Source: Fragilariopsis cylindrus CCMP1102
Lineage: Eukaryota; Bacillariophyta; Bacillariophyceae; Bacillariales; Bacillariaceae
Assembly: GCA_900095095.1 (NCBI GenBank)
Contig: FMBT01000366.1
Location: forward strand, 62,001-126,000
Direction of reading: 5' to 3'
Length of the DNA: 64,000 nucleotides
Shown here: in pieces, positions 20,698-35,171 of the stretch
How the letters are laid out: every line of letters starts with the position of its first letter
Numbering within the stretch: position 1 is the stretch's first letter
Made by a program: the position numbers and the translations under genes
The notes under the pieces: model-generated
Databases searched by the model: none
What the model saw: the letters and a program-made list of their open reading frames with translations, nothing else
Told to the model about the DNA's origin: nothing

Positions 20698-23359
20698 ATG
20701 ACGTTGATAATCTTTTACTACCACAACTATAATTTGCTGCTGATGGTGGGTTGCAGCTTATTATCATTAGTGATGTTGCTATCGTCGTCGTCGTCATTAC
20801 ATTATTCATGTAATGGGTTTACATTGCCATTGCCAGTTACGACTACAAGAACACGAATGAGAATAAGCACAAGCACAAGCAGCGATACTGCAACATCATC
20901 CACGAATTATCATGAAAAGAAGAAGAATGACGGAAAGACCACAAAGAAGAATGATGACGACAAAAAGAATTATTCCTTAAATCAAATCGAATTAGAAAAG
21001 AAATATTCTAAATTTCCAAGAACATGGGTACCAATCGCCTCCATCTATGAATTAGATCCCAATCGTCCTACACCACAACTATTTTAATCAACAGTATGTT
21101 TGTTATCAAGATCAACCAAGTGGTCAATGGATTATCATGGATGATATCTGTCCACATCGATTAGCACCATTATCGGAAGGTAGAATTAATCGTAATACAG
21201 AAACTAGTAGTACTGACGATGATACTGATAAGAAAAAGGGTAAAAAAAATAAGGATGCAGAAATTAGTAGTATTATATCCACATCCTTACAATGTTCCTA
21301 TCATGGATGGGAATATGATGGTCTCAATAATGGTAAATGTATTGGAATACCACAAATATCCGAACAAGAAAAGACTGCATTATTATCATCCACATCCAAT
21401 TCAAATCGTGCCTGTGTGAAATCCTATTCAACTATAGTACATAAAAATATTTTATGGTTTTGGCCCTGGAAAGTAGATTCCTTATCAATCTTAGGACAAC
21501 ACAAAAAATATCCTGAAGGGATGATGGAAAGTATCAGTATCAATGCTATACCATCTACCTATACACGTGATTTACCATACGGATGGGATACACTTGTAGA
21601 AAATTTAATTGATCCCGCACATATACCCTTTGCACATCATAATTTACAAGGGAAACGAAAGGATGCTATACCAATCTATATGTCTATACCAGAATCGTTT
21701 TCAGATACTACTGTAGAAAGTACTGATGGTGGGAGCAAAAAGAATGATGGTGGTGAAACAGGTTTTTATTTTGAATGGTCTGATCGTACAAGTAAGTGTT
21801 AGTTAGTTAATGGTGGTTTGTTTTCGCTTTTTTCTGGATTTTTTTGTTCTGTTCTGTTGTGTTCTGTTTTGTCAATGTGATGATGGGTCTGGTGCTACGA
21901 GTGGTGCTACGAGCTGATGCTACAGGATGTTTGTTTTTGTCACCGCTACTAATATACGTACAGGACTGCTACTGAGTTACGTTACGTCAATCTTTGAACT
22001 TCTGCTACTACTGCTATTGCTACTACTGCTGCACTGCTACTGTACTACTATACTACTACTGTTGATAAAGTAAAAGCGGCGATGTGATTTAGACTAGACT
22101 TAGACTAGACCAGCACACATGGAGGGGGGGGGGAAGTCGTAGTATTCAGCAGCAGGAGGAAATTCGATTTGATTCGATTCGACCGATCCGTGAAGATCAG
22201 AGCTGACATTGATATGACGTACGCGGTGCATTTGTCGTTCGTTCGTTTGTCCGTTTGTTTGTTTGGAATGTTGAATGTGATGATGATGATAACAACGAGC
22301 AAGATGACAACGATGAAGTGACATCTATTTTGACTCATACTCTTCCTACTGTTCTATTTTTTTATACCTATCACTTTTGTACGTACGTATAGGGGGCAAA
22401 CATCGTGGCGGTACAGGTGAATTCAATGCACCGTATGGGGTTTCCTATAATGCACATTATTATGATACAAAAGAAGAAATGTTAGAGAAACGTGGTACAC
22501 ATTTAATTAAATTAAAAAATAAATTAAGAGTAAATGCAAATGCAAATAATAATGGTGGCGACGACGACAACGGAGGTTTTGGAAATAAATGAGGACGAAG
22601 ATAAAGAAAAAGACGATGCAGGATTTAAATTAGGTGCATTATGTATACCAACAAAACCAGGTTGGTCACGTGCTATTATTATGGCTGGACCAAGTAAGGA
22701 GGAAGGTGATAATAAAGAAGAAGAAGAAGCTGAAAAAGTAGTAGTAGTAGTAAGCAAAGAAGAGGAAATGAAGGAAAAGGAAATGAAGAAAAAGAAAAGA
22801 AGAAAAATCTTTATTTGGAATATTATTTTCAATTATACCAGTTTGGGCAATACATTTATTAAGCAATAAATTTTTAGATTCCGATTTATCATTCTTACAT
22901 TATCAAGAACAAGAACGATTACGTCATATACAGGATGGTAGATATGATGGTGGATCGAATGGATATTATATGCCAGCCCAATCGGATCGATGTATATCTG
23001 CATTACGTAAATGGATACCAAAATATACAAATTATTTAGGTGATGGTTCTCCATCCAATAATAAATATGAATTACCAAATACTATACCAAGAAAAGAATT
23101 ATTTGATCGGTATGTACAACACACATCTCATTGCCGTCATTGTCAAAAGGGATTAAAGCAAATTCAAACAAAGATTATACCAAGATTATATGGTGTTATG
23201 ACAATATCAATTTTAGCAAGTGGATTTAATTTATTTCGTGGGTATAAATTAGTAACAAAATTGATTGCTCTGCTGTCATTTGGTTTGATACGATTAATAA
23301 CAGCAAAAATTGAACCAGCATTTAAAGATGGTGAATTTAAACATTATGAAAATGATTAA
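20698..23359 (+). CDS. Pheophorbide a oxygenase-like Rieske [2Fe-2S] monooxygenase, frame breaks
   Basis: ATG 20698 begins a hydrophobic leader (about 25-45 residues in) followed by NGFTLP, suiting plastid targeting in a diatom. Rieske ligands are CPH in DICPHRLAPL and CSYH in LQCSYHGWEYDG. They are about 47 residues apart because of a Lys/Asp-rich insertion. The mononuclear iron site is NLIDPAHIPFAHH (D, H, H). A 601-nt phase-1 intron (21792-22392) joins exactly as AGG. The C-terminus has two hydrophobic stretches and the PAO-type RYVQHTSHCRHCQKGL with its CxxC. Breaks occur near 21083 (one extra T; the restored frame reads QLFNQQYVCY), about 22590 and about 22800. The family includes PAO (chlorophyll breakdown), TIC55 and CAO; the C-terminal CxxC and membrane part favour PAO/TIC55-like. 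Confidence 0.85.
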
Positions 23360-23676
23360 TTGAAAAAGAAAAGAAAAAAAGTATTGCGTCTCGATTGGGA
23401 TTATTTCTGTGCGAAATAAGCAAAATAGATAAACGAAGAAGATAAAGATGTCGACTTACAAGCAATAACCATTATTTAATTAAAAACTCTAAATAATCAA
23501 ATAAGACCTTATGAATGACTGTTTAAAAAAAGAATCTTTTTGATACTACTTCTACCTAACTAACTAATTAACTAACTAACTAATGTACTAAAAGTAGTAC
23601 TGCAGGACAAACGAGAACATCTTCTAACGTAGGTAAGCTACAGCACTACAGTAGTAGCTATTTTATCGTTCGTTAC
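23344..23676 (+). repeat. Left arm of large inverted duplication
   Basis: Begins in the last codons of the PAO-like gene and runs through its 3' flank. Its reverse complement recurs at 33552-33898, with shared blocks such as ATTATGAAAATGATTAATTG, GTATTGCGTCTC and GCAGGACAAACGAGAAC and only small indels. Confidence 0.85.
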
Positions 23677-23944
23677 TTTTTTTTGGGAAATGATTTATTT
23701 GGTAGAGATGATTTTGAATAATACTTTTTCTTCCTTTTTAGTATTTTTTCCGTAAATAAGTAAATAATGTTTGTTGTGTTAATGATGATGCGCTGGATAT
23801 TCTTTTAAATTCTGGTTTACTTTATAATTTATATGTATAGATATAGAGACGACAGACAGTATGTGTGGTATACGATAGTGGGGGATATAGTGAAACAGTA
23901 TTGATTTATACTATGTCTTCCAAAGGGAAACAATGTGCATAAAA

Positions 23945-25935
23945 TTAACTAAATTTGGGGAACATAACTCCGTCAACAACGTGAGCAACTCCGTTGCAGA
24001 ATTTGATATCAGTTTGAATGATCTGAGGAGAAGACAAAAGTTGAGTATTCCCGGCACCATTCTGATACATCGCACTGTTGATGCATTTAGTACGACTTGA
24101 ATCACCGTTGAACATTTCAATTTTTTCTCCACACTTGAGGTCATCGCTGTTGAGGATTTTACCAGGAACGGCATGGAACATAAGGATATTGTTCACAGCA
24201 TCATTGGACAATGGTTCAAGTATTTCTCCAGCTTTCTCAAAAGCATCATCATTGGGAATGAAAAACGTCCATGTTTCTTTGTCAAAGGAGGAATCTAGTT
24301 TAGCAGCCTTTAAGGCATCACAGAAAGAGTAAAATCCTTGCCGTTGCAAACAATGTCATCTATTTATATTTATAAATTAATAGAGAGCAAGAAGTGGTTA
24401 GTAGAAGCATCAACTGTGTTCGATAATGGAATGGATTCGAAGGAGCAAAGGATTATAAATGTGAGACGCATACAAACTTACCGAGTGATTCACACTTGTC
24501 ACGTCTTTATCATTGTCGTCGCTATCACCATCTCCTAGCATATTCTCAGGATCAACAATTGTGACAATAGCACACTGTGTCCAAACCTGTGGAGTTTGTT
24601 CGGAATCCCATCTCCAGCTAACAACGTAATCACCATTGAGACCTTCAGGAACCTTCAATTCGTCAACAACTTTCCAATGGAATATAACAGCTTCCAAATC
24701 AGGAGAATTTCCAAAGGACCATAACCGTAATATCCCGGAGGAGCGTGATCCGTGAACGCCGGTTCCGTGCAGTTTTCATTAACACTACCATCAGTGTTTA
24801 AGAAGTATTTGCATGGAGAGATACCAAGTTTCCTCCATGTGCTACCCTTTGGCATAACACCGTCGGTATTATTGTCATCAATATCCATCGCTTCAAACGT
24901 AATGTTTGCGGTGTGGTACCGTCATCAGATGTTGCAATGAATAAAGATTTATCACTGGCAAATTCCATCACGGTTGCTTGAAAGCAGGTTTCGTCAAGTG
25001 TGTTGTTAATCAAGTTAACAAGAGGACAGAGACGATATTGATGCCTCCTCCGTGGTTGGCATTGAGGGTATATGATCCTTCAACAATCTCTCCTGAGGTC
25101 CAGACAGTTGGATATGCAGCTACCGAGTCACCCTGTGCATTTTGCATCCGCATGTTCACCTCCCAGGATAGAACGGTAGATCCTAAAGTGCCAACAGGAG
25201 GGTCCATATTCTTAGGCGGCATGTCTCCGTTGACGGCTCCACCTTCACCGTGAATCAAACGATAGAAACCATCGTCGGGTCCAGCAATGTAATCTCTTGC
25301 ATCTGAAAATTTCCACCCACCAAGAACGCCGCAAGAATCTACGAGGGGTGCAGTTCCAGGAACAAACCACGGATTGCCTGCAAAAATTGATGCCGAAATA
25401 TTGCCTTTGTATACCTCAGTCTGCCTATATTCCATATCCTTCGCACACTCTTTGGTATCATTTTTATACCCTAACGAAAACGCGAATCCCGGAATTTCGC
25501 AGTCGCCATCACGGTAAATCGTCGGATTTGAAATCTGGTCCAGACTTTTTAAAGTAGGTTCCATTGATTCTTCGCAAAACTTTCCGGGAGGTTTATTTTG
25601 ACCCTACAAGAGAAAGGAATAAGATAGATGAATAGAGAGGAGATAGTTGAACAAATAATGAGATGATTTGACAATAGCAGAAAAGTGAATGTGTCCGCAA
25701 GAATTATTGTACTACTATCACTTACGGTTGCCGTGCATCCTGGTGCTGTTCCAGTTGTAAACCAATTAACATTATAGATATCTGCCGCATTTACAAGACA
25801 TTCACCACTGCATGGGTTTGTCATCTTCTCCGTACCCTCAGGATCAACCAGTCTACCATGTCCTAGCACGGATAGAAACACAGAAGAAGTGATTGTGATC
25901 CGAAGAAGGCAAGCATTACTAAACTTCATCATCAT
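23945..25935 (-). CDS. Secreted LPMO-like protein with C-terminal fasciclin domain, copy A (disrupted)
   Basis: The start is a run of ATGs at 25935. A signal peptide ends in SVLG, followed by HGRLVDPEG, so the mature protein would begin with His as in lytic polysaccharide monooxygenases. The second His of a copper brace would be in ANHGGG. The C-terminus is a FAS1 domain (TWTFFIPNDDAFEKAG; HVVDGVMFPKF). Two 122-nt GT-AG introns lie at 25604-25725 and 24360-24481; copy B lacks both precisely. Relative to B, single bases are missing after GGAGGAGG near 25046, near 24915, near 24715, about 24497 and about 24328 (CTTTC versus CTTTTC). These are sequence errors or early decay. LPMOs oxidise chitin or cellulose and FAS1 mediates adhesion; the substrate is unknown. 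Confidence 0.65.
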
Positions 25936-26275
25936 TGTAGTGTTATTTATCTTGCGAAGAGAAAAGAAGTGGGAGATTCTTGTTGTTGTGAAATAAGAAA
26001 CGTAAATCAAGTAAGTAATGATAAATTAACAGGCAGTGCTGACTGTTGACAAAAAAATTCGGAGCTTCTTTCATTTCGCAGGATTTTTTTCATTTTTCAA
26101 ATCTTCTCTTTCCTATTTCGCTCTACCGTGCCAGTTTCGTGCTACCAGTTTCGCGCTACCAGGGGCATGCGCTTCACTGGGCATAGGTGATTCACAGCTT
26201 GGTTCACGTTCGCAGATCCTTCTTTCAATAAATACTACCACAATAGGTCCATTCGCCACCATCATCTTATATTTG

Positions 26276-26500
26276 GCAAGCATTACTTAACTTCATCATC
26301 GTTTGTATTGTTATTTATCTTTGTATTTAATAATAATGAGTCAATTGTACTCGTCACGTACTGTACTTCGAAGTACTGTACCGTATATTCAGTACCGTAT
26401 TCAATACCGTATTCAGTATGTGTTGTACAGTACAGTACAGTAGCATGCAAAAATATCTTCGCCGATTTCGCTACTTTATTTACCGTACGACGCGCTATCA
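26276..26500 (-). repeat. Promoter-like repeat R, copy a, with fragment of the LPMO-like gene start
   Basis: On the minus strand this reads as in the sequence ahead of LPMO-like copy B: the GCGCGTCG start, GTAGCGAAATCGGCGAAGATA, TTTTTGCATGC, several 12-bp GAATACGGTACT-type units, GACTCATTATTA and AAGATAAATAACAATACA. It then gives two ATGs and about six codons of the LPMO-like N-terminus before homology stops. It lies about 340 bp upstream of intact copy A, so the promoter block was separated from the gene or is a further partial copy. Confidence 0.75.
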
Positions 26501-26604
26501 ATCATCACAACAAACTATTTAGATCCTTTTCATTATTGCGTAGTACTAGTACTACTGTATTCCTCTTTGACGATAATCGATCGCTATAATTGAATGTCTC
26601 TACG

Positions 26605-26927
26605 TACTTCCTCCGTGCAACCGTAACTTCACGCGCGCTATGAGGCGAAAATTTAGCACGTTATTCACACCCTATCACTCAAAAAGCTAAATAATGCCCA
26701 GAAAATAACTAGCAAATACTAGTAAAACTATTCATAATTCAACTGTGTGCAAGTCTATCAATAGTATACAATTTCTTTCCAAATTTGAAGGTTCCATCTG
26801 AACTATTATTCTACACAGATTTCATAATATATCAACATCCATAAGGTTCTACCCTTTTTTTATTTTCCAAGCATGTTAATTTTTCAAACAATAGCGCGCT
26901 TGAAGTTACGGTTGCACGGAGGAAGTA
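26605..26927. mobile_element. MITE 1, TA-flanked, long terminal inverted repeats
   Basis: TA dinucleotides (26605-26606 and 26926-26927) bound CTTCCTCCGTGCAACCGTAA...TTACGGTTGCACGGAGGAAG, with inverted repeats of about 35 bp reaching GCGCGCTAT. About 320 bp and no coding capacity. The interior shares long blocks with MITE 2. The TA target and CTTCCTCC end recall Tc1/mariner-derived Stowaway-like MITEs. Confidence 0.85.
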
Positions 26928-26999
26928 CGCTTTTTCCATACTATATTCTCAGTCGTACGTACGTGAGCGTATTATCTCTCGAATTGAAATTATTTGAAA

Positions 27000-27351
27000 T
27001 ACTTCCTCCGGGCAACGCTAAACGCGGAGGGGGCTATCGGCTAAACATTTTAGCCTTATTAACACGCTATCACTCAAAAAACTAAATAATGCCCAAAAAA
27101 TAACTAGCAAATACTAGTAAAACTATACATCATTCAACTGTGTACAACTCTATCAATAAACAATATCTTTCAAAATTTGAAGACTCCATCTAAAGTATTA
27201 TTCTACACAGAATTCATATATCAACATCCATAAGGTTCTATATTTCCTGCTAAAATAGGCAACGTGATAGACGAAATTAGCATGTGTTAATTACGCGCAA
27301 AAATTAACAACCGATAGCCCCCTGCGCGTTTAGCGTTGCCCGGAGGAAGTA
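27000..27351. mobile_element. MITE 2, same family as MITE 1
   Basis: TA (27000-27001, 27350-27351) flanks CTTCCTCCGGGCAACGCTAA...TTAGCGTTGCCCGGAGGAAG. The inverted repeats extend about 40 bp with small differences (GGGGGCTATCGG versus CCGATAGCCCCC). The interior matches MITE 1 over AACTAGCAAATACTAGTAAA and ATCAACATCCATAAGGTTCT. No ORF. Confidence 0.85.
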
Positions 27352-27510
27352 ATTACTAATTGCTGTGTCGTCCAGTCGTTGAAATAGATTAAAAAGGGTC
27401 ATTTATTTTTCTTAATTAATAATTTTTTACACTTTCTTTACTACCGTTAACATCATATATTGATTGGTTCAAAGAAAGACAAAAAAAAAGACAAGAAGTA
27501 AAAACAGAAG

Positions 27511-29280
27511 ATGGTGAATATAAGCACTACTACCAATGGTGGAAGTAGTCATAGTAGGCATAATGGATCATCAAAATCGTCGTCATTGTCAGGGAATAAG
27601 AATATGAATTTGAACAAGAAAAAGAAAAAGAAAATGATTAGTATATATTCTATTCTATTCACAATAATATTATTGTTAATTGCTATTGAAATTATCGCGT
27701 ATACGTATATAAATTTACCAGAAAGTAATGAAAGCAGCAACGAAGTACAAACACTAATTTTAGAACAACATAGTCAACAACAGCGCCAACAACAACAACA
27801 ACAACAATCACCAATATTAACACCAAAACAACAACGTCAAAACAAAAATCAAAAATTACGATTAGAAAATCAAAACTTTCATGACAAACAAAATTATATG
27901 AAAAACAACAACAAGAATTACGTCAAAGTATACAAAAGTATGATAATACCACACTGGAGGAACGAATAAAAACATCATTGAAAATACAAAGTATGGGTAT
28001 CTCCAAAGAGGAATATACCTTAGATGAAATACCACCCTGGTCTCAAATTATATCAAATTTTAATTCTGTGACAAAAAATGATATTGAAAAAGATGATAAT
28101 GATGACGATGAACCAATTATACTTGGTTTACACGAATATTGTCCAGATTATCGACAACAATATCAGCATCAAAATAATATTGCCACCGGTCCCGCTGGTA
28201 TGTTTTCAACTGGTACTAATTTAATTGCTATCTTAATGAAAACAAATTGTCGAAGTCCCTCTGCCGAAAGAACCAGAGCAAGAGGTTTTAATTTAATACA
28301 AGTTCCGGTACGTTAAAAATTGAATTATATTGAATTGAATTGAATTGAATTGAATATACAATTCATTACTAGACATCTTTGACGATGCGACGGTGACGTT
28401 GACGCTGATGAGATATTTTATCTTTCTAAAAATGTATTTTCTCATCTTTCTTTTCCTTTTTCTCTTTTTCTCTATAAATAATAAGTGGGGAAAACATAAT
28501 CCAGCCGATGCCAGAACCTATCGTCATCGAGTGACGAATCCAAGAATTACTGGTGGTAATAAAAATTATGATGCCGTCTTACCAATCGTAGCAATCCGAC
28601 ATCCCTATACCTGGATGACAGCTATGTGTCGACATTCGTATCAAACACGATGGAAACATGTCCGTGATCATTGTTACGAATCATTATATTTACAGAATCC
28701 TATATTAAAAGTACCCTATGGCTTTAAAAATTATACCACAATCGATCCAACTACAGGAACAAGTGTCACAAAAAATGTCACAAATTCTTATAAGTCCTTA
28801 GCGGATATGTGGGTCGAATGGTATAAACCCTATTATCTTGATACACTCTATAATAATACACCACGTATTATGGTCCGTCATGAAGATTTAGTCTACCGGC
28901 CGAAAAAAGTAATTACCTCCATCTGTGAATGTGTCGGTGGTACCATCCGTTCCGATGGATTTCAATATAAAGAAGATTCTGCGAATGAAGGTAAAGGACA
29001 TGGCAAACATCGATCAGGATTATTAACAGCAATTATAAAATATGGTCAACCATTAGAAGATTGGTATGCATCCTATACAAGTACCGATCGTAAGATAATG
29101 AAATCTGTCTTTCAAGGTAATGAGAATGAGAATGATGAGAATAATGAGAATGAGAATGTGAAATTAATGCGTACTATATATAAAACATTTCAATATAAAT
29201 TATATGATGATCTATCAGATCCAATACGTAATACAGGATGGGAACAGAAAATGAATCCCATATTATTTCCACCCACCTGA
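27511..29280 (+). CDS. Type II membrane sulfotransferase-like protein
   Basis: ATG 27511; about 530 residues if one missing base near 27890 (A-run) is allowed. A Lys-rich cytosolic head is followed by one membrane span (about residues 46-66) and a Gln/Asn-rich stem, the usual Golgi type II layout. The PAPS-binding P-loop-like motif is GPAGMFSTGTNLIAILMKTNC minus its last residue, and the 3'-phosphate motif is VAIRHPYTWMTAMCRHSY. A 178-nt phase-0 intron (28308-28485) joins QVP to WGKHNPA, restoring the VPWGKH motif. MVRHEDLVYRP is the third conserved block. Such enzymes move sulfate from PAPS to glycans; the acceptor cannot be predicted. It ends at TGA 29280, convergent with the next gene. Confidence 0.7.
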
Positions 29281-29493
29281 ATGAATGAATCCACCCTGAA
29301 TCCACCCTGAATCACCACCTACCTATTTACCTAATAACATCAAAACAATAACCACAACAATACAATAATAACCATGGATAGATGTAAAATATTATATCAA
29401 AAATATACTATTTATCATTTAATTCAATTCAATTCGATTCTAGACGATTTATCTATTTCAATTTATCTTATTTTATTTATTATACAATCATCA

Positions 29494-29997
29494 TCACAGC
29501 ATAGCAGCCACCAACGGAGACAATAACGACGACTGTACGACTGCACGGAATCTATTTGCTTGATAATAAGATAAATCATTCTTACTACTGGACGACGACG
29601 ACAACGACGGTTGTGATGGTGGTGATGATGATTCTTCACAGCATTCCTCACATGGAAATACCTCATCTGACACTAAATCGGATTCTAGTTGATCGTTGTT
29701 GTCAATATTGTTGTTGTCATCGATCGGCCGTCGTAATACATCATTTAACCATTCGTTAAAAGCTAAATTCACAGTTGTACCATTTATAGATGCTTTTATA
29801 GGTGCTTTCAACCATACTTTATCTAAATCTTCCTCTGAATCATTCAAATCACCAAGTACTGTATGGAATTCACAGGAACTCAAAAATATCTATGATGATG
29901 AGCGACATCAGTTACTTCTTCTTGTTCGCAATTTACAACCGATGATGACAATAATAAACACGTAATATAGTAGCCCAAATGGCAATTTGTTCATCAT
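29494..29997 (-). CDS. Small secreted protein, unknown function, two frame breaks
   Basis: Double ATG at 29997/29994 opens a hydrophobic leader (PFGLLYYVFIIVIIG), then VNCEQEEVTDVAHHHRYF in a shifted frame. After one missing T in TTTTT (about 29888) follows SSCEFHTVLGDLNDSEEDL, NGTTVNLAFNEWLNDVL and an acidic, Cys- and Ser-rich tail to TGA 29494. About 165 residues. The family is not recognised. The first about 45 codons and upstream region recur as a truncated copy at 32460-32680. Confidence 0.5.
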
Positions 29998-30099
29998 TCT
30001 TTTTATGTCCTTACTTCAGTTCTCTTCTTCTGATTTTGGTACTGTGTAATTAAGTGTGTCTTGTATTTTTAATTCTTTATTCGTCACTTCTATTCTTCA

Positions 30100-30210
30100 A
30101 TGCTTTTTTGCTTTTCGAGTTTGTGGTGATGGAAGCGCGTCGTGCGGTAAAAGTAGCGAAATCGGAAAGATATTTTTGCATGCTACTTCGAACTACGTGA
30201 CGCGAAAGCG
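30100..30210 (+). repeat. Promoter-like repeat R, copy b (no iterons)
   Basis: Reads GTGGTGATGGAAGCGCGTCG, AAAGTAGCGAAATCGG, ATATTTTTGCATGCTACTTC and GTGACGCGAAAGCGACGAAAC, like copies c and d but without the 12-bp GAATACGGTACT block. It lies upstream of the small secreted-protein gene (29494-29997, -). Confidence 0.7.
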
Positions 30211-30417
30211 ACGAAACTCTCTCTGAGCACGCAATTTCTGGATTGAAACTCAGGAGTTTTTTGGTCGCGCGAACTAAATTGAGAGCAAACAATCAACGTT
30301 TAAGGAATATTAGGTCATCTGCACCAGCTGGCGAACCAACAATTACTGAATCAATCCATCAGTCTGGTAATGGATCCGGTACTCCCGATCCGGTACTGGA
30401 TCCGGCAATGCTTATAT

Positions 30418-30700
30418 GCATTTCGAGTTTGTAATTTATTATTTTATGTCATGCCTTCAGTTATGTGGTGGTGATGATGGAAGCGCGTCGCACGGTACGG
30501 TGAATAAAGTAGCGAAATCGGCAAAGATATTTTTGCATGCCACTGTGCACACATACTGAATACGGTACTGAAAACGGTACTGAATACGGTGCACAGTACT
30601 TCGAAGTACGTGACGCGAACGCGACGAAACGAAAAGACTATTACTAGTGTTGCGACTGATCTACAATTGACTCATTATTAAATACCAAGATAAATAACAA
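30418..30700 (+). repeat. Promoter-like repeat R, copy c, upstream of LPMO-like copy B
   Basis: Shares GTAATTTATTATTTTA, GGAAGCGCGTCG, GTAGCGAAATCGGCAAAGAT, TTTTTGCATGC, three GAATACGGTACT-type units (30558-30595), then GTGACGCGAACGCGACGAAA and GACTCATTATTA. It ends just before the copy B start codon, so it is the likely promoter and 5' UTR. Confidence 0.75.
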
Positions 30701-30707
30701 TACAACG

Positions 30708-32458
30708 ATGATGAAGTTTAGTAATGCTTGCCTTCTTCGAATCACGATCACTTCTTCTGTGGTTCTATCCGTGTTAGGACACGGTAGACTGGTTTATCCT
30801 GAGGGTCCGGAGCGGATGACAACCCTTGCCATGGTGAATGTGTTGTAGGTAACCTGGTAGACAGTAACGTGGTAGACCCCTACAATTTTAATTGGTTTAC
30901 ATCCGGAACAGCACCAGGATGCACGGCAAACGGTCAAAATACACCTATCGGAGGAAAGTTTTGCGAAGAAGTCATGCAACCTACTTTAAAAAGTCTCGAC
31001 CAGCTTTCAAATCCAACATTTTACCGTGATGGCGACTGCGAAAATTCAATCGCAATGTATCTGTATAAGAACGATACCAAAGAGTGTGCGAAGGATATGC
31101 AATATAGGCAGACTGAGGTATACAAAGGCAATATTTCGGCATCAATTTATGCCAGCAATCCGTGGTTTGTTCCTGGAACTGCACCCCTCGTAGATTCTTG
31201 CGGCGTTCTTGGTGGGTGGAAATATTCAAATGCAAGAGATTACATTGCTGGACCCGGCGATGGTTTCTATCTTGAATCCCACGGTGAAGGTGGAGTTGTC
31301 AACGGAGCGATGCCGCCTAAGAATATGGACCCTCCTGCCGGAACTTTAGGATCTACCGTTCTATCCTGGGAGGTGAACATGCGGATGCAAAATGCACAGG
31401 GTGACTCGGTAGCTGCATATCCAACTGTTTGGACCTCAGGAGAGACTGTTGAAGGATCATATTCCCTCTATGCAAACCACGGAGGAGGACATCAATATCG
31501 TCTCTGTCCTCTTGATAACTTGATTAACAACACATTTGACGAAACCTGCTTTCAAGCAATGGTGATGGAATTTGCAAGTGATAATTCTTTATTCATTGCC
31601 ACATCTGATGACGGTACCACCACTGTAAACATTACATTTGACGCGATGGATATCAATGACAATAATACTGATGGTGTTATGCCAAAGGGTAGCACGTGGA
31701 GGAAACTTGGTATCCCTCCATGCATAAACGCTTTTACTGGAAACTGCACGGGACCGCAGTTCACGGATCACGCTCCTCCTGGATATTACGGTTCTTATTT
31801 CGATGTTGCTGTAAAGTCTCCTGATTTTGAAGCTGTTACAAATCGTTGGAAAGTTGTTGACGAATTGAAGGTTCCAGAAGGTCTCAATGGTGATTACGTT
31901 GTTAGCTGGAGATGGGATTCCGAACAAACACCACAGGTTTGGACACAGTGTGCTATTGTCACAATTGTTGATCCTGAGAATATGCTAGGAGATGGTGATA
32001 GCGGCGACAATGACAAAGACAATGACAAGTGTGAATCACTCAATGACATTGTTTGCGGCAGCCAGGATTTTATTCTTTTCTGTGATGCCTTAAAGGCTGC
32101 TAAATTAGATTCCTCCTTTGACAAAGAAACATGGACGTTTTTCATTCCCAATGATGATGCTTTTGAGAAAGCTGGAGAAATACTTGAACCATTGTCCAAT
32201 GATACTGTGAACAATATCCTTATGTTCCATGCCGTTCCTGGTAAAATCCTCAACAGCGATGACCTCAAGTGTGGAGAAAAAATTGAAATGTTCAACGGTG
32301 ATTCAAGTCGTACCAAATGCATCAACAGTGCCATGTACCAGAATGGTGCCGGGAATACTCAATTTTTGTCTTCTCCTCAGATCATTCAAACTGATATCAA
32401 ATTCTGCAATGGAGTTGCTCACGTTGTCGACGGAGTAATGTTCCCCAAATTTAGTTAA
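30708..32458 (+). CDS. Secreted LPMO-like protein with C-terminal fasciclin domain, copy B (intronless)
   Basis: ATG 30708; about 583 residues if one A is restored near 30820 (ATGACAACCC read as ATGACAAACCC gives MTNPCHGEC as in copy A). The signal peptide ends SVLG, followed by HGRLVYPEG, placing His first in the mature protein. CGVLGGW, ANHGGGHQYRLCP and GDYVVSWRWDSEQTPQVW match LPMO-type cores, and the two His could form the copper brace. FAS1 spans roughly the last 130 residues (FFIPNDDAFEKAG, GVAHVVDGVMFPKF). Many NxT/S sites suggest glycosylation. Likely role: oxidation or binding of an extracellular polysaccharide with adhesion; the substrate is not deducible. The two introns of copy A are absent. 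The gene lies between direct copies of repeat R. Confidence 0.75.
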
Positions 32459-32459
32459 A

Positions 32460-32680
32460 TTTGCGCACATTGTTTCCTTTTGGAAGACACAGTATAGATC
32501 ATCATCAGTATCGCTACTATTATTAATGGAAGCAGTAGCCGCGACTACGGACCTATGATGATAAGCGACATCATCAGTTATTTCTTGTTCGCAATTTACA
32601 ATAACTGCTGTTGTACTACCGATGATGACAATAATAAGCACGTAATATAGTAGTAGCCCAAATTTCATAGTTCTTTTCAT
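32460..32680 (-). pseudogene. Truncated copy of the small secreted-protein gene
   Basis: ATG 32680, then MKFGLLLYYVLIIVIIG and VNCEQEITDDVAYHHR match the N-terminus of the gene at 29494-29997. Similarity then ends and the frame runs antisense through the 3' end of LPMO-like copy B (to about 32303). The duplicated unit includes the upstream region and repeat R copy d, so it is a 5' fragment carried by duplication. Confidence 0.6.
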
Positions 32681-32787
32681 ATTCCTACTTCAGTTCTTCT
32701 TTTTCTGATTAGTACTAGCTGTGTAATTACTTCGAGGTATGCGTGTAATGTGTTTTAATTCTATATATGTCGCTTCTTCTTCAATGC

Positions 32788-33075
32788 TTTTGCTTTTCGA
32801 GGTTTGTAATTTATTATTTTATTTCTTCAGTTCTTTGTGGTGATGGAAGCGCGTCGTACTTACGGTAAAAGTAGCGAAATCGGCAAAGATATTTTTGCAT
32901 GCTAAAGTACAGTACACATATAATGAATACGGTACTGGATACGCTACTAAATATGGTACTGAATACGCTACTGAATACGGTACTGTACGTTCGAAGTGCG
33001 TGACGCGAACGCGACGAAACGAAAAGACTATTAGTGTTGCGACTGGTCGGTCTACAATTGACTCATTATTATTAA
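32788..33075 (+). repeat. Promoter-like repeat R, copy d, five iterons
   Basis: Same order as copy c, with an expanded block of about five GAATACGGTACT-type 12-mers at 32922-32985, then GTGACGCGAACGCGACGAAA and GACTCATTATTATTAAA. It lies between the truncated secreted-protein copy (-) and a 5'-truncated membrane-protein fragment (+). Confidence 0.75.
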
Positions 33076-33079
33076 ACAC

Positions 33080-33361
33080 CATAGTGATTGTCGTCTATGC
33101 TTTGCTATCTTCGGTCTCGTTGCTGCACTTAGATACAGTGTATGTATGCTTGGTACTGGGGTCTTCTTTATCCTTGTTCAATTCGGATACTCCATTTATG
33201 AAATTTTTGCGTTCGATTCATACAACACAGGTGGAGATATTGGCACCATTATTGCCCTTATCATCGGATATGGATTATTTCTTTATCCAGTTATCGGATT
33301 GATCACTGAAATTAAGAGTGGGGTTATGAGTTGTGAAACTTATCCCCGTGAAGGTATGTAA
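33080..33361 (+). pseudogene. 5'-truncated membrane-protein fragment fused to repeat R
   Basis: An open frame begins directly at the end of repeat R copy d without an ATG (CRLCFAIFGLVAALRYSVC) and continues MLGTGVFFILVQFGYSIYEIF, then GTIIALIIGYGLFLYPVIGL, ending PREGM before TAA at 33359-33361. The first in-frame ATG is 33146. Two or three hydrophobic helices are visible. GTATGT at the end could be a donor. The family is not recognised; it looks like the remains of a multi-span protein. Confidence 0.4.
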
Positions 33362-33551
33362 AGTTGTTGTTCGAATCTTGTGATATATATGTATCTCTTT
33401 CCTCTCTCCTCGCCTATCTAACGAAATCTATTCTCATTATTCCTACCTATAATCGCTACCACCCACCAACTTCAATACTACACTAGCCTATTCCTGCTGC
33501 TGTAGCCCAAAAGTTTGATTAAATAGGAAATGAAGAAAAATACATGGCAAT

Positions 33552-33898
33552 GTAACGAACGATAAAATAGCTACTAGTGCTGTAGCTTACCTACGTTGGA
33601 AGATGTTCTCGTTTGTCCTGCAGTACTACTTCTGGTAGTGGGCAGTTAGTTAGTTAGTTAGTTAGTTAGTTGATCAGGTAGGTAGGTAGAAGTAGTATTG
33701 AAAAGATTCTTCTTTAAAACAGTCATTCATAGGTCTTATTTGATTATCTAGGGTTTTTAATTAAATAATGGTTATTGCTTGTACTAAGTCGCACATCTTC
33801 ATCTGCTTCGTCTACCTATTTTGCTTATATTTCGCAAAAAAAAAACGATCCCGAGACGCAATACTTTTTCTTTCTTTTTCAATTAATCATTTTCATAA
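33552..33898 (-). repeat. Right arm of large inverted duplication
   Basis: Reverse complement of 23344-23676, including on the minus strand the last few codons and stop of the PAO-like gene (CATTTTCATAAT region at 33885-33898). Because it contains a gene end, this arm is the derived copy. Confidence 0.85.
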
Positions 33899-35171
33899 TA
33901 AGAATCGAAGGAATGAATCAACGTTTAAGGAATATCGTACTACTGTATGTATCTTGTATGAGGTGTACTGTCGTAATAATTCTATTTACGGTATGCATAC
34001 TCTAGTTCGTATAAACCATACCCTCTAGAACGTACTGTACTGGACATATCAGTTTATTATGGATTGATGATTCGGACGATCATTATCATAATATGTGCTA
34101 TCATGTTACACAGTACAGTACAAGAATAACGGGTCAAAAAAACACCCGTTATCATTTTTAACCTCATTCATTATTATTTTTTGATACGTTCAGATACTTA
34201 TCTAATTTATTGAGGTTCATTAATTATTGTATTTTTCATTTAATGTGATACAGTACTATACCTGGTACACGCTTTCATTCTGTTATTTGTTTTGTGATTT
34301 TTATCTGTGAAGTAAAGCATGAATGAAATATATATAATATAAATAAATGAAGAAATAATACAAAAGGTGCGGACGAATCAATCGGTGTATCAGTGGGATT
34401 ATAAAGTATCAGTTGGTTTGAATTAGAAGGTGAATTAGTCGATGACTTATAGACAGCGAATCAATCAGTCGGTGTATCAGTAGGATTGTACAATAGTGAT
34501 ACAAATTATTTTATCTAAAAAAAAGATTTCTTGCGATTTAACGCACTGCATAAACCCGAAGAGCGGTTACTCTTCTAAGCGTCATTCACTTCCAAATACG
34601 CAATCCCTTCGTTCTTCACGATCACCTACAAATAGAGAGTCGCGCGTGAATGGAAATTCGCCTGTCAATACACAGTAAACCTTCCACGGAGGTTTTCTTA
34701 TGTATTTCTCATCACGAATACATCATTATTTTGTAAGTATTCGCTTTCTTTGACAAAAAAAATGGTGCTAATATTGTTATTCGGTATTGGATTTTTTAGT
34801 CATTTTTATGGAGTCGCCAATTCCCTTAAATAATATTTGATCGAAATGCTTGGTGATGCGACTTCGATGACTTCGTACTACTGTATAGTTCACCTTTTTT
34901 TGCTTCACTAAAATTGTGTCCGATCACAATATATCATATACAGTACCGTATTTCCGTATCTCTGGATGTTTCTTCTTTTATACATAGAAAGGAAAGCGCT
35001 AATAACCAAAACAAAGAAGAAAAAAACAAAGAAAAGGACAAGAAGAGATGAAACAAAGAGACAGCCGGTAGTAGCACAAATACAAAAATACAAATACATT
35101 ATAAGGTGTGTGTGTGTGTGTGTGTGGTAACGATTCTCACTATTTTATATCGCACGGATACATTACATACG
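33899..35171. other. Intergenic region
   Basis: AT-rich and without a convincing gene. Contains a perfect 9-bp hairpin (ATAACGGGT 34126-34134, ACCCGTTAT 34144-34152) with a C-A7-C loop, and a GT microsatellite at 35106-35125 just before the next gene. Confidence 0.5.

Follow-up and report, generated by a model that had tools for sequence, protein, structure and literature searches.

Four, two and no introns in one gene family: an inverted pair of LPMO-like/fasciclin genes in Fragilariopsis cylindrus

Many studies of intron loss compare species, seeing only the start and the end of the process. Reverse-transcriptase-mediated losses have been described, in the portions of the literature on which we draw, for Dictyostelium discoideum (441 precise losses, PMC4683709) and for rat and mouse (PMC3652778). 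The reverse transcriptase model predicts that losses are exact, that they affect adjacent introns and that they concern the 3'-most ones (PMC3652778, PMC4683709). Here we consider a window of 64,000 nucleotides from the diatom Fragilariopsis cylindrus CCMP1102 (FMBT01000366.1, positions 62,001 to 126,000; part of contig C47 in our numbering). It contains two copies, A and B, of a gene for an LPMO-like protein with a fasciclin domain, situated in inverted orientation beside a pheophorbide-oxygenase-like (PAO-like) gene.

As far as the same portions describe them, the losses in Dictyostelium (PMC4683709), rat and mouse (PMC3652778) resemble those considered here in being exact, in removing adjacent introns together and in leaving the flanks in place, and perhaps in their 3' bias. 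The difference is that here inverted duplicates of one gene, about 5 kb from each other, represent both an intermediate state, with two of four introns lost, and the end state, with all four lost. The plant OPR genes, in the described part of that family (PMC2688005), also include paralogues with subsets of the conserved introns and have lost 3' introns, but there the comparison runs across plant lineages, whereas the present case is one locus of one genome. We regard the locus as a tidy addition to the known examples of this process. Four-intron, two-intron and intronless forms occur together in one genome, two of them at this short distance. Their coexistence brings the model of recombination with reverse-transcribed mRNA (cDNA) within reach of a direct test in a silicified alga, and would allow intron loss to be weighed against the expression of otherwise similar paralogues. 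Silicon-transporter genes are present in this genome (PF03842, 27 matching stretches), in agreement with a diatom; they also occur in some other silicifiers.

Introns of the two copies and of their paralogues

Copy A contains two introns, whereas copy B is continuous over both junctions, with one substitution close to each and a length equal to the spliced length of A (Table 1). The first-pass annotation, made from the sequence of this window, had described two 122-nt introns in A that are precisely absent from B, and both junctions and spliced length agree with this. The two-intron difference is thus real, but incomplete: A and B both lack two more introns that are present in all close paralogues.

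A DNA search of the genome (67.9 Mb, 818 contigs) with the A half, together with a protein search with B, yielded five close paralogues spanning the whole gene, on contigs C81, C659, C464, C501 and C645, by which they are named below. The 10-kb loci around them were aligned and measured. In all five, the gene is interrupted at the same four sites (20 of 20) by GT..AG introns, which measure 105-142 nt. With all four removed, C464 and C501 are open for 600 and 593 amino acids, respectively, and thus splicing of the family introns is supported indirectly. The intron phases in these two genes are 0, 1, 0, 1; the remaining three (C81, C659, C645) have one or two single-base frame breaks each. Family fragments on C439 and C213, matching approximately codons 306-401 and 320-401 of C501, are confined to the later part of exon 2. 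As they extend to none of the intron sites, they were excluded from the intron counts.

Compared with these genes, A lacks the neighbouring introns 3 and 4, which are the two 3'-most, and B lacks introns 1-4. All six absences (two in A, four in B) are exact to the base, and the spliced length is kept throughout. What had been described as a single two-intron difference is therefore a graded, 3'-weighted series of intron numbers within one genome: four in the five paralogues, two in A and none in B.

One of the two histories initially proposed was that A gained its introns after the duplication, possibly from an introner family. Introns 1 and 2 are indeed absent from B, and intron 1 is absent from three of the four distant LPMO outgroups as well. 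However, both introns are found in five of five close paralogues, at the same sites and with alignable sequence. For intron 2, the identity of A is 93.4% to C81 and 92.6% to C659. Intron 1 is 93.4% identical to that of C659 and 69-73% identical to those of the other four paralogues (72.6% for C81). A gain in A is therefore rejected, and we give it practically no chance. No introner family was recovered by genome searches with the introns of A and a few flanking bases, which returned paralogues only: two matches for intron 1 and five for intron 2, self included, that is, one and four other places. Copies near 70% identity escape such searches. The intron 1 search missed intron 1 of four paralogues (69-73%), and thus diverged copies elsewhere would escape too. 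Judged by sequence, the change within this family is loss, not gain.

Mode and order of intron loss

The absences are exact, adjacent and 3'-most, and the flanks are retained. This pattern fits recombination with cDNA. In our preferred explanation, to which we assign a probability of about 0.75, a four-intron LPMO-like/fasciclin gene adjoining the PAO-like gene would have been copied together with its flank, as DNA and in inverted orientation, and the chromosomal genes would have recombined with reverse-transcribed spliced mRNA, so that introns were removed exactly. We infer the cDNA intermediate and the involvement of a reverse transcriptase, as well as the simultaneous loss of adjacent introns. 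The genome contains Copia-type reverse transcriptase domains (RVT_2), with at least 150 matches above the cut-off when 150 of the 264 candidates were scored. The earlier suggestion that B lost its introns through cDNA-type recombination gains support from the presence of these introns in all five paralogues and from the exactness of the absences.

The duplication itself occurred at the DNA level, as the first-pass annotation had proposed, since both the arms and an upstream block are common to the two sides. A blastn comparison of the window with itself aligns the arms on opposite strands with 84.0% identity (363 columns, 38 gaps, E 5.8e-105). They consist of non-coding flank and the very end of the PAO-like coding sequence, YEND* (four codons with the stop), and thus DNA, not mRNA, was copied there. 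The same comparison aligns the gene bodies in inverted orientation, 24467-25603 with 30932-32057 at 88.4% and 23902-24359 with 32043-32501 at 95.4%, and the upstream blocks at 72% with 64 gaps. The model predicts a gene that stays at its locus with non-transcribed flanks, and the arms and upstream block are indeed common to both sides, with the B side rearranged.

Independent genomic deletions could also account for the six absences, and precise deletion through end joining has been proposed (in the portion of PMC3652778 used here). But each of the six absences is precise to the base and concerns introns that adjoin one another, and no exon letters were seen to be lost or duplicated at the junctions. 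We consider such a series of deletions very improbable.

Several points weigh against recombination with cDNA, or against the history that it implies. Firstly, the homology of B to the outside paralogues is confined to the coding sequence and its immediate surroundings (about -28 to about +40), which is retrocopy-like. One could thus suppose that B is an inserted reverse-transcribed mRNA, fully spliced, or that A is a semi-processed one. The semi-processed retrogene of mouse preproinsulin I, in the part of its description on which we draw (PMC3449122), has likewise kept some introns and lost others. Moreover, an A8 tract (23684..23677, minus-strand reading) lies exactly at the junction of A's own 3' segment and the shared flank. 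However, unlike in preproinsulin I, DNA-level flanks are shared here: both sides of the locus have the upstream block as well as the far 3' arm. No A-run occurs within 160 bases after the stop codon of B, and no target-site duplication was seen at the junctions in a reading by eye, no systematic search having been made. The homology of A to C81 reaches about +150, ending about 110 nt short of the A8 tract. A retrocopy is therefore improbable in our opinion. The tract at 23677-23684 may be due to chance or may be the trace of a poly(A) tail.

Secondly, adjacency and 3' bias are absent from some of the studies covered in the relevant part of PMC3652778. Two random losses would hit the two 3'-most of four introns by chance in 1 of 6 cases (simple arithmetic), and thus the 3' bias is weak.

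Thirdly, site 1 is uninterrupted in three of the four distant LPMO outgroups (C341, C557, C72; the fourth, C456, ends short of this site), and a fasciclin relative on C500 is continuous through sites 3 and 4. Since these deeper relatives have no introns at sites 1, 3 and 4, the introns may have been gained on the stem of the family and then lost again in A and B; the later loss is unaffected. The predicted ancestral presence of the missing introns holds within this family, not deeper.

Finally, the phylogeny is not uniform. In favour of loss within the family, a protein tree built from the LPMO part, with the four distant genes as its root, groups A with B (79.6/71) and these two with C81 (85.9/82), and the other four paralogues form a group of their own (92.6/95); the group of A, B and C81 is nested inside the intron-bearing family. 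The ingroup of this tree sits on a very long branch (1.43). In the all-exon nucleotide tree A, B and C81 are unresolved (23.2/47), forming a near trichotomy, and the tree of exons 3-5 leans to B and C81 (82.5/77), which speaks against introns 3 and 4 having been lost already in an ancestor common to A and B. As the segment exon trees place A, B and C81 in conflict, any timing of the losses is tentative. Informative sites join A with B in 21 cases, A with C81 in 12 and B with C81 in 7 (binomial p 0.16 and 0.013); this support is weak, since at many such sites C81 looks converted by the other clade. Paralogues also swap tracts, which blurs the family history. Between C659 and C501 the synonymous distance (dS) falls from 0.410 in exons 1-2 to 0.072 in exons 3-5 (Fisher p 6.7e-7), and ectopic conversion between paralogues is evident in this family. 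The 3' third of this pair is strongly homogenised (intron 3 95.5%, intron 4 98.5%), and the 5' two thirds are divergent.

As regards the order of events under recombination with cDNA, we tentatively favour nested losses (4 -> 2 -> 0), at slightly less than even odds. Before the duplication, the gene ancestral to both copies would have lost introns 3 and 4 to a 3'-partial cDNA; a longer cDNA would afterwards have taken out introns 1 and 2 in B alone. Another possibility is that one full-length cDNA stripped B of all four introns, and that B then converted the 3' third of A, removing introns 3 and 4. The identity of A and B is indeed higher in the 3' block (95.4%) than upstream (88.4%), their dS is 0.092 in exons 3-5 vs 0.154 in exons 1-2, and the 3' end of the pair C659 and C501 provides an example of ectopic conversion elsewhere in the family. 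However, this drop in dS towards the 3' end does not reach significance (Fisher p 0.26). Identity at the 3' end is also high between A and C81 and between B and C81 (94-96% in exons 3 and 4; 90 and 96%, respectively, in exon 5), and thus conservation of the 3' end is general in this subclade. We consider full loss followed by conversion possible, if on balance unlikely, and prefer the nested losses, without strong support.

In principle, the common ancestor of A and B could have been intronless already, in which case A would have regained introns 1 and 2 by conversion from an intron-bearing paralogue. Intron transfer of this kind has been named as a mechanism, for which there is support in few cases, according to the portion of PMC3443670 on which we draw. 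As in the Chironomus globins (Hankeln 1997, cited in PMC3443670), an intron-bearing and an intronless paralogue would be involved in conversion, and the tract common to A and C659 covers intron 1. Identity of A to C659 is 93.4% in this intron, although in exon 1 it is just 78.6%. In exon windows 240-300 and 280-340 A is 94 and 98% identical to C659 vs 89 and 87% to B. Unlike in the globins, as far as that citation describes them, intron transfer is a minority reading here, and the exchange between A and C659 may have run in either direction. Moreover, directly upstream of intron 2 the exon of A has letters in common with B where C81 and C659 differ, and thus a second, very tight conversion tract would be needed. 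The dS of A in exons 1-2 increases from B (0.154) through C81 (0.186) to C659 (0.384). The chance of such a regain is slim. The same holds for a two-way intron traffic, in which cDNA recombination would strip introns and conversion by paralogues would restore them, with intron 1, and perhaps intron 2, of A coming from a C659-like paralogue.

Layout of the locus and state of the genes

The features of the locus are listed in Table 1.

Table 1. Features of the inverted duplication, in window coordinates
Feature	Position	Strand	Remarks
Copy A, LPMO-like/fasciclin gene	23946..25935	-	First ATG 25935, TAA 23948-23946; frame broken by five 1-nt deletions
Intron 1 of copy A	25604..25725	-	122 nt, GTAAGT..TTGTAG; not in B
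Intron 2 of copy A	24360..24481	-	122 nt, GTAAGT..AAATAG; not in B
Intron 3 site in A	24184..24185	-	Exact absence; 109-111 nt in five of five paralogues
Intron 4 site in A	23997..23998	-	Exact absence; 123-138 nt in five of five paralogues
Copy B, intronless LPMO-like/fasciclin gene	30708..32458	+	551-aa open frame 30803-32458
Intron 1 site in B	30931..30932	+	Exact absence
Intron 2 site in B	32042..32043	+	Exact absence
Intron 3 site in B	32218..32219	+	Exact absence
Intron 4 site in B	32405..32406	+	Exact absence
A-side arm of inverted duplication	23343..23679	-	3' flank and last four codons with stop of PAO-like gene; 84.0% to B-side arm
B-side arm of inverted duplication	33549..33899	+	Self-blastn match to A-side arm
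A-side upstream (promoter-like) block	26275..26511	-	Continues into 47-bp duplicate of gene start
B upstream (promoter-like) block and gene start	30468..30732	+	Self-blastn
Insertion with dispersed repeat between start codon of A and upstream block	25954..26274	.	About 320 bp, beside 47-bp gene-start duplication
Second, direct copy of B's upstream unit (29890-30680), downstream of B	32553..33071	+	70-77%
Dispersed segment between B and arm	33098..33540	+	Copies on C48, C72, C307, 83-87%

The promoter block that the first-pass annotation had assigned to both copies is common to both sides, but on the A side it does not adjoin the start of the gene, being separated from it by the insertion with the dispersed repeat. 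On other contigs, the genome search returned for this block nothing beyond matches that cover at most 51 query bases, and the paralogues elsewhere are without it. A similarity between the upstream regions of A and C81 had been considered as a shared promoter and was dropped: these letters are part of a dispersed repeat that has dozens of matches. The gap of about 1.05 kb between B and its arm holds the second copy of the upstream unit and the dispersed segment. The latter overlaps an open frame of 99 aa that contains long hydrophobic stretches and does not match any Pfam profile. On the minus strand, positions 29494-30000 possibly contain a divergent small gene upstream of B, the start of which is duplicated, in truncated form, at 32553-32689; the upstream block of B may serve as a two-way promoter.

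The PAO-like gene has Pfam matches to Rieske (51.2 bits) and PaO (29.8 bits), each above the cut-off. At 22534-23359 it shows an apparent frame change by an A-rich run at about 22815, which may represent single-base consensus errors in the assembly. A second allele of the flank 21000-23700 was not found in a DNA search of the genome, the 21 matches being the sequence itself, the arm and 19 short ones (at most 82 bases).

Single-base indels in exons are most numerous in A, with five deletions relative to C81; there are two in C645, one each in B, C81 and C659, and none in C464 and C501. The deletion in B (exon alignment column 115) cuts its open frame off from the ATG, and the indel of C659 is at the same alignment column. 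The excess of deletions in A suggests decay, and A may be a pseudogene. As several copies have single-base indels, assembly errors are also plausible for those of A. For the pair A and B, the dN/dS ratio (nonsynonymous to synonymous distance) drops from 0.52 in exons 1-2 to 0.24 in exons 3-5.

The fasciclin domain (FAS1, PF02469) scores 68.1 and 75.3 bits, above the cut-off of 22, and the LPMO_10 profile of Pfam is below its curated cut-off (18.9 and 17.1 bits vs 23). The LPMO-like part, with C501 as the query, has a weak PDB match to the AA13 structure AoAA13 (E 0.0024). The predicted protein is thus called LPMO-like only, fused to a fasciclin domain; it could possibly represent an algal LPMO branch. 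Both A and B encode a signal-peptide-like start with a histidine shortly after it, which may have the meaning that such a histidine has in LPMOs.

Between the two genes there are two similar elements, at 26603-26929 and 26997-27354, that look like small DNA transposons. Their bodies are 82.7% identical, and their terminal inverted repeats start with CTTCCTCCGKGCAAC and adjoin TA.

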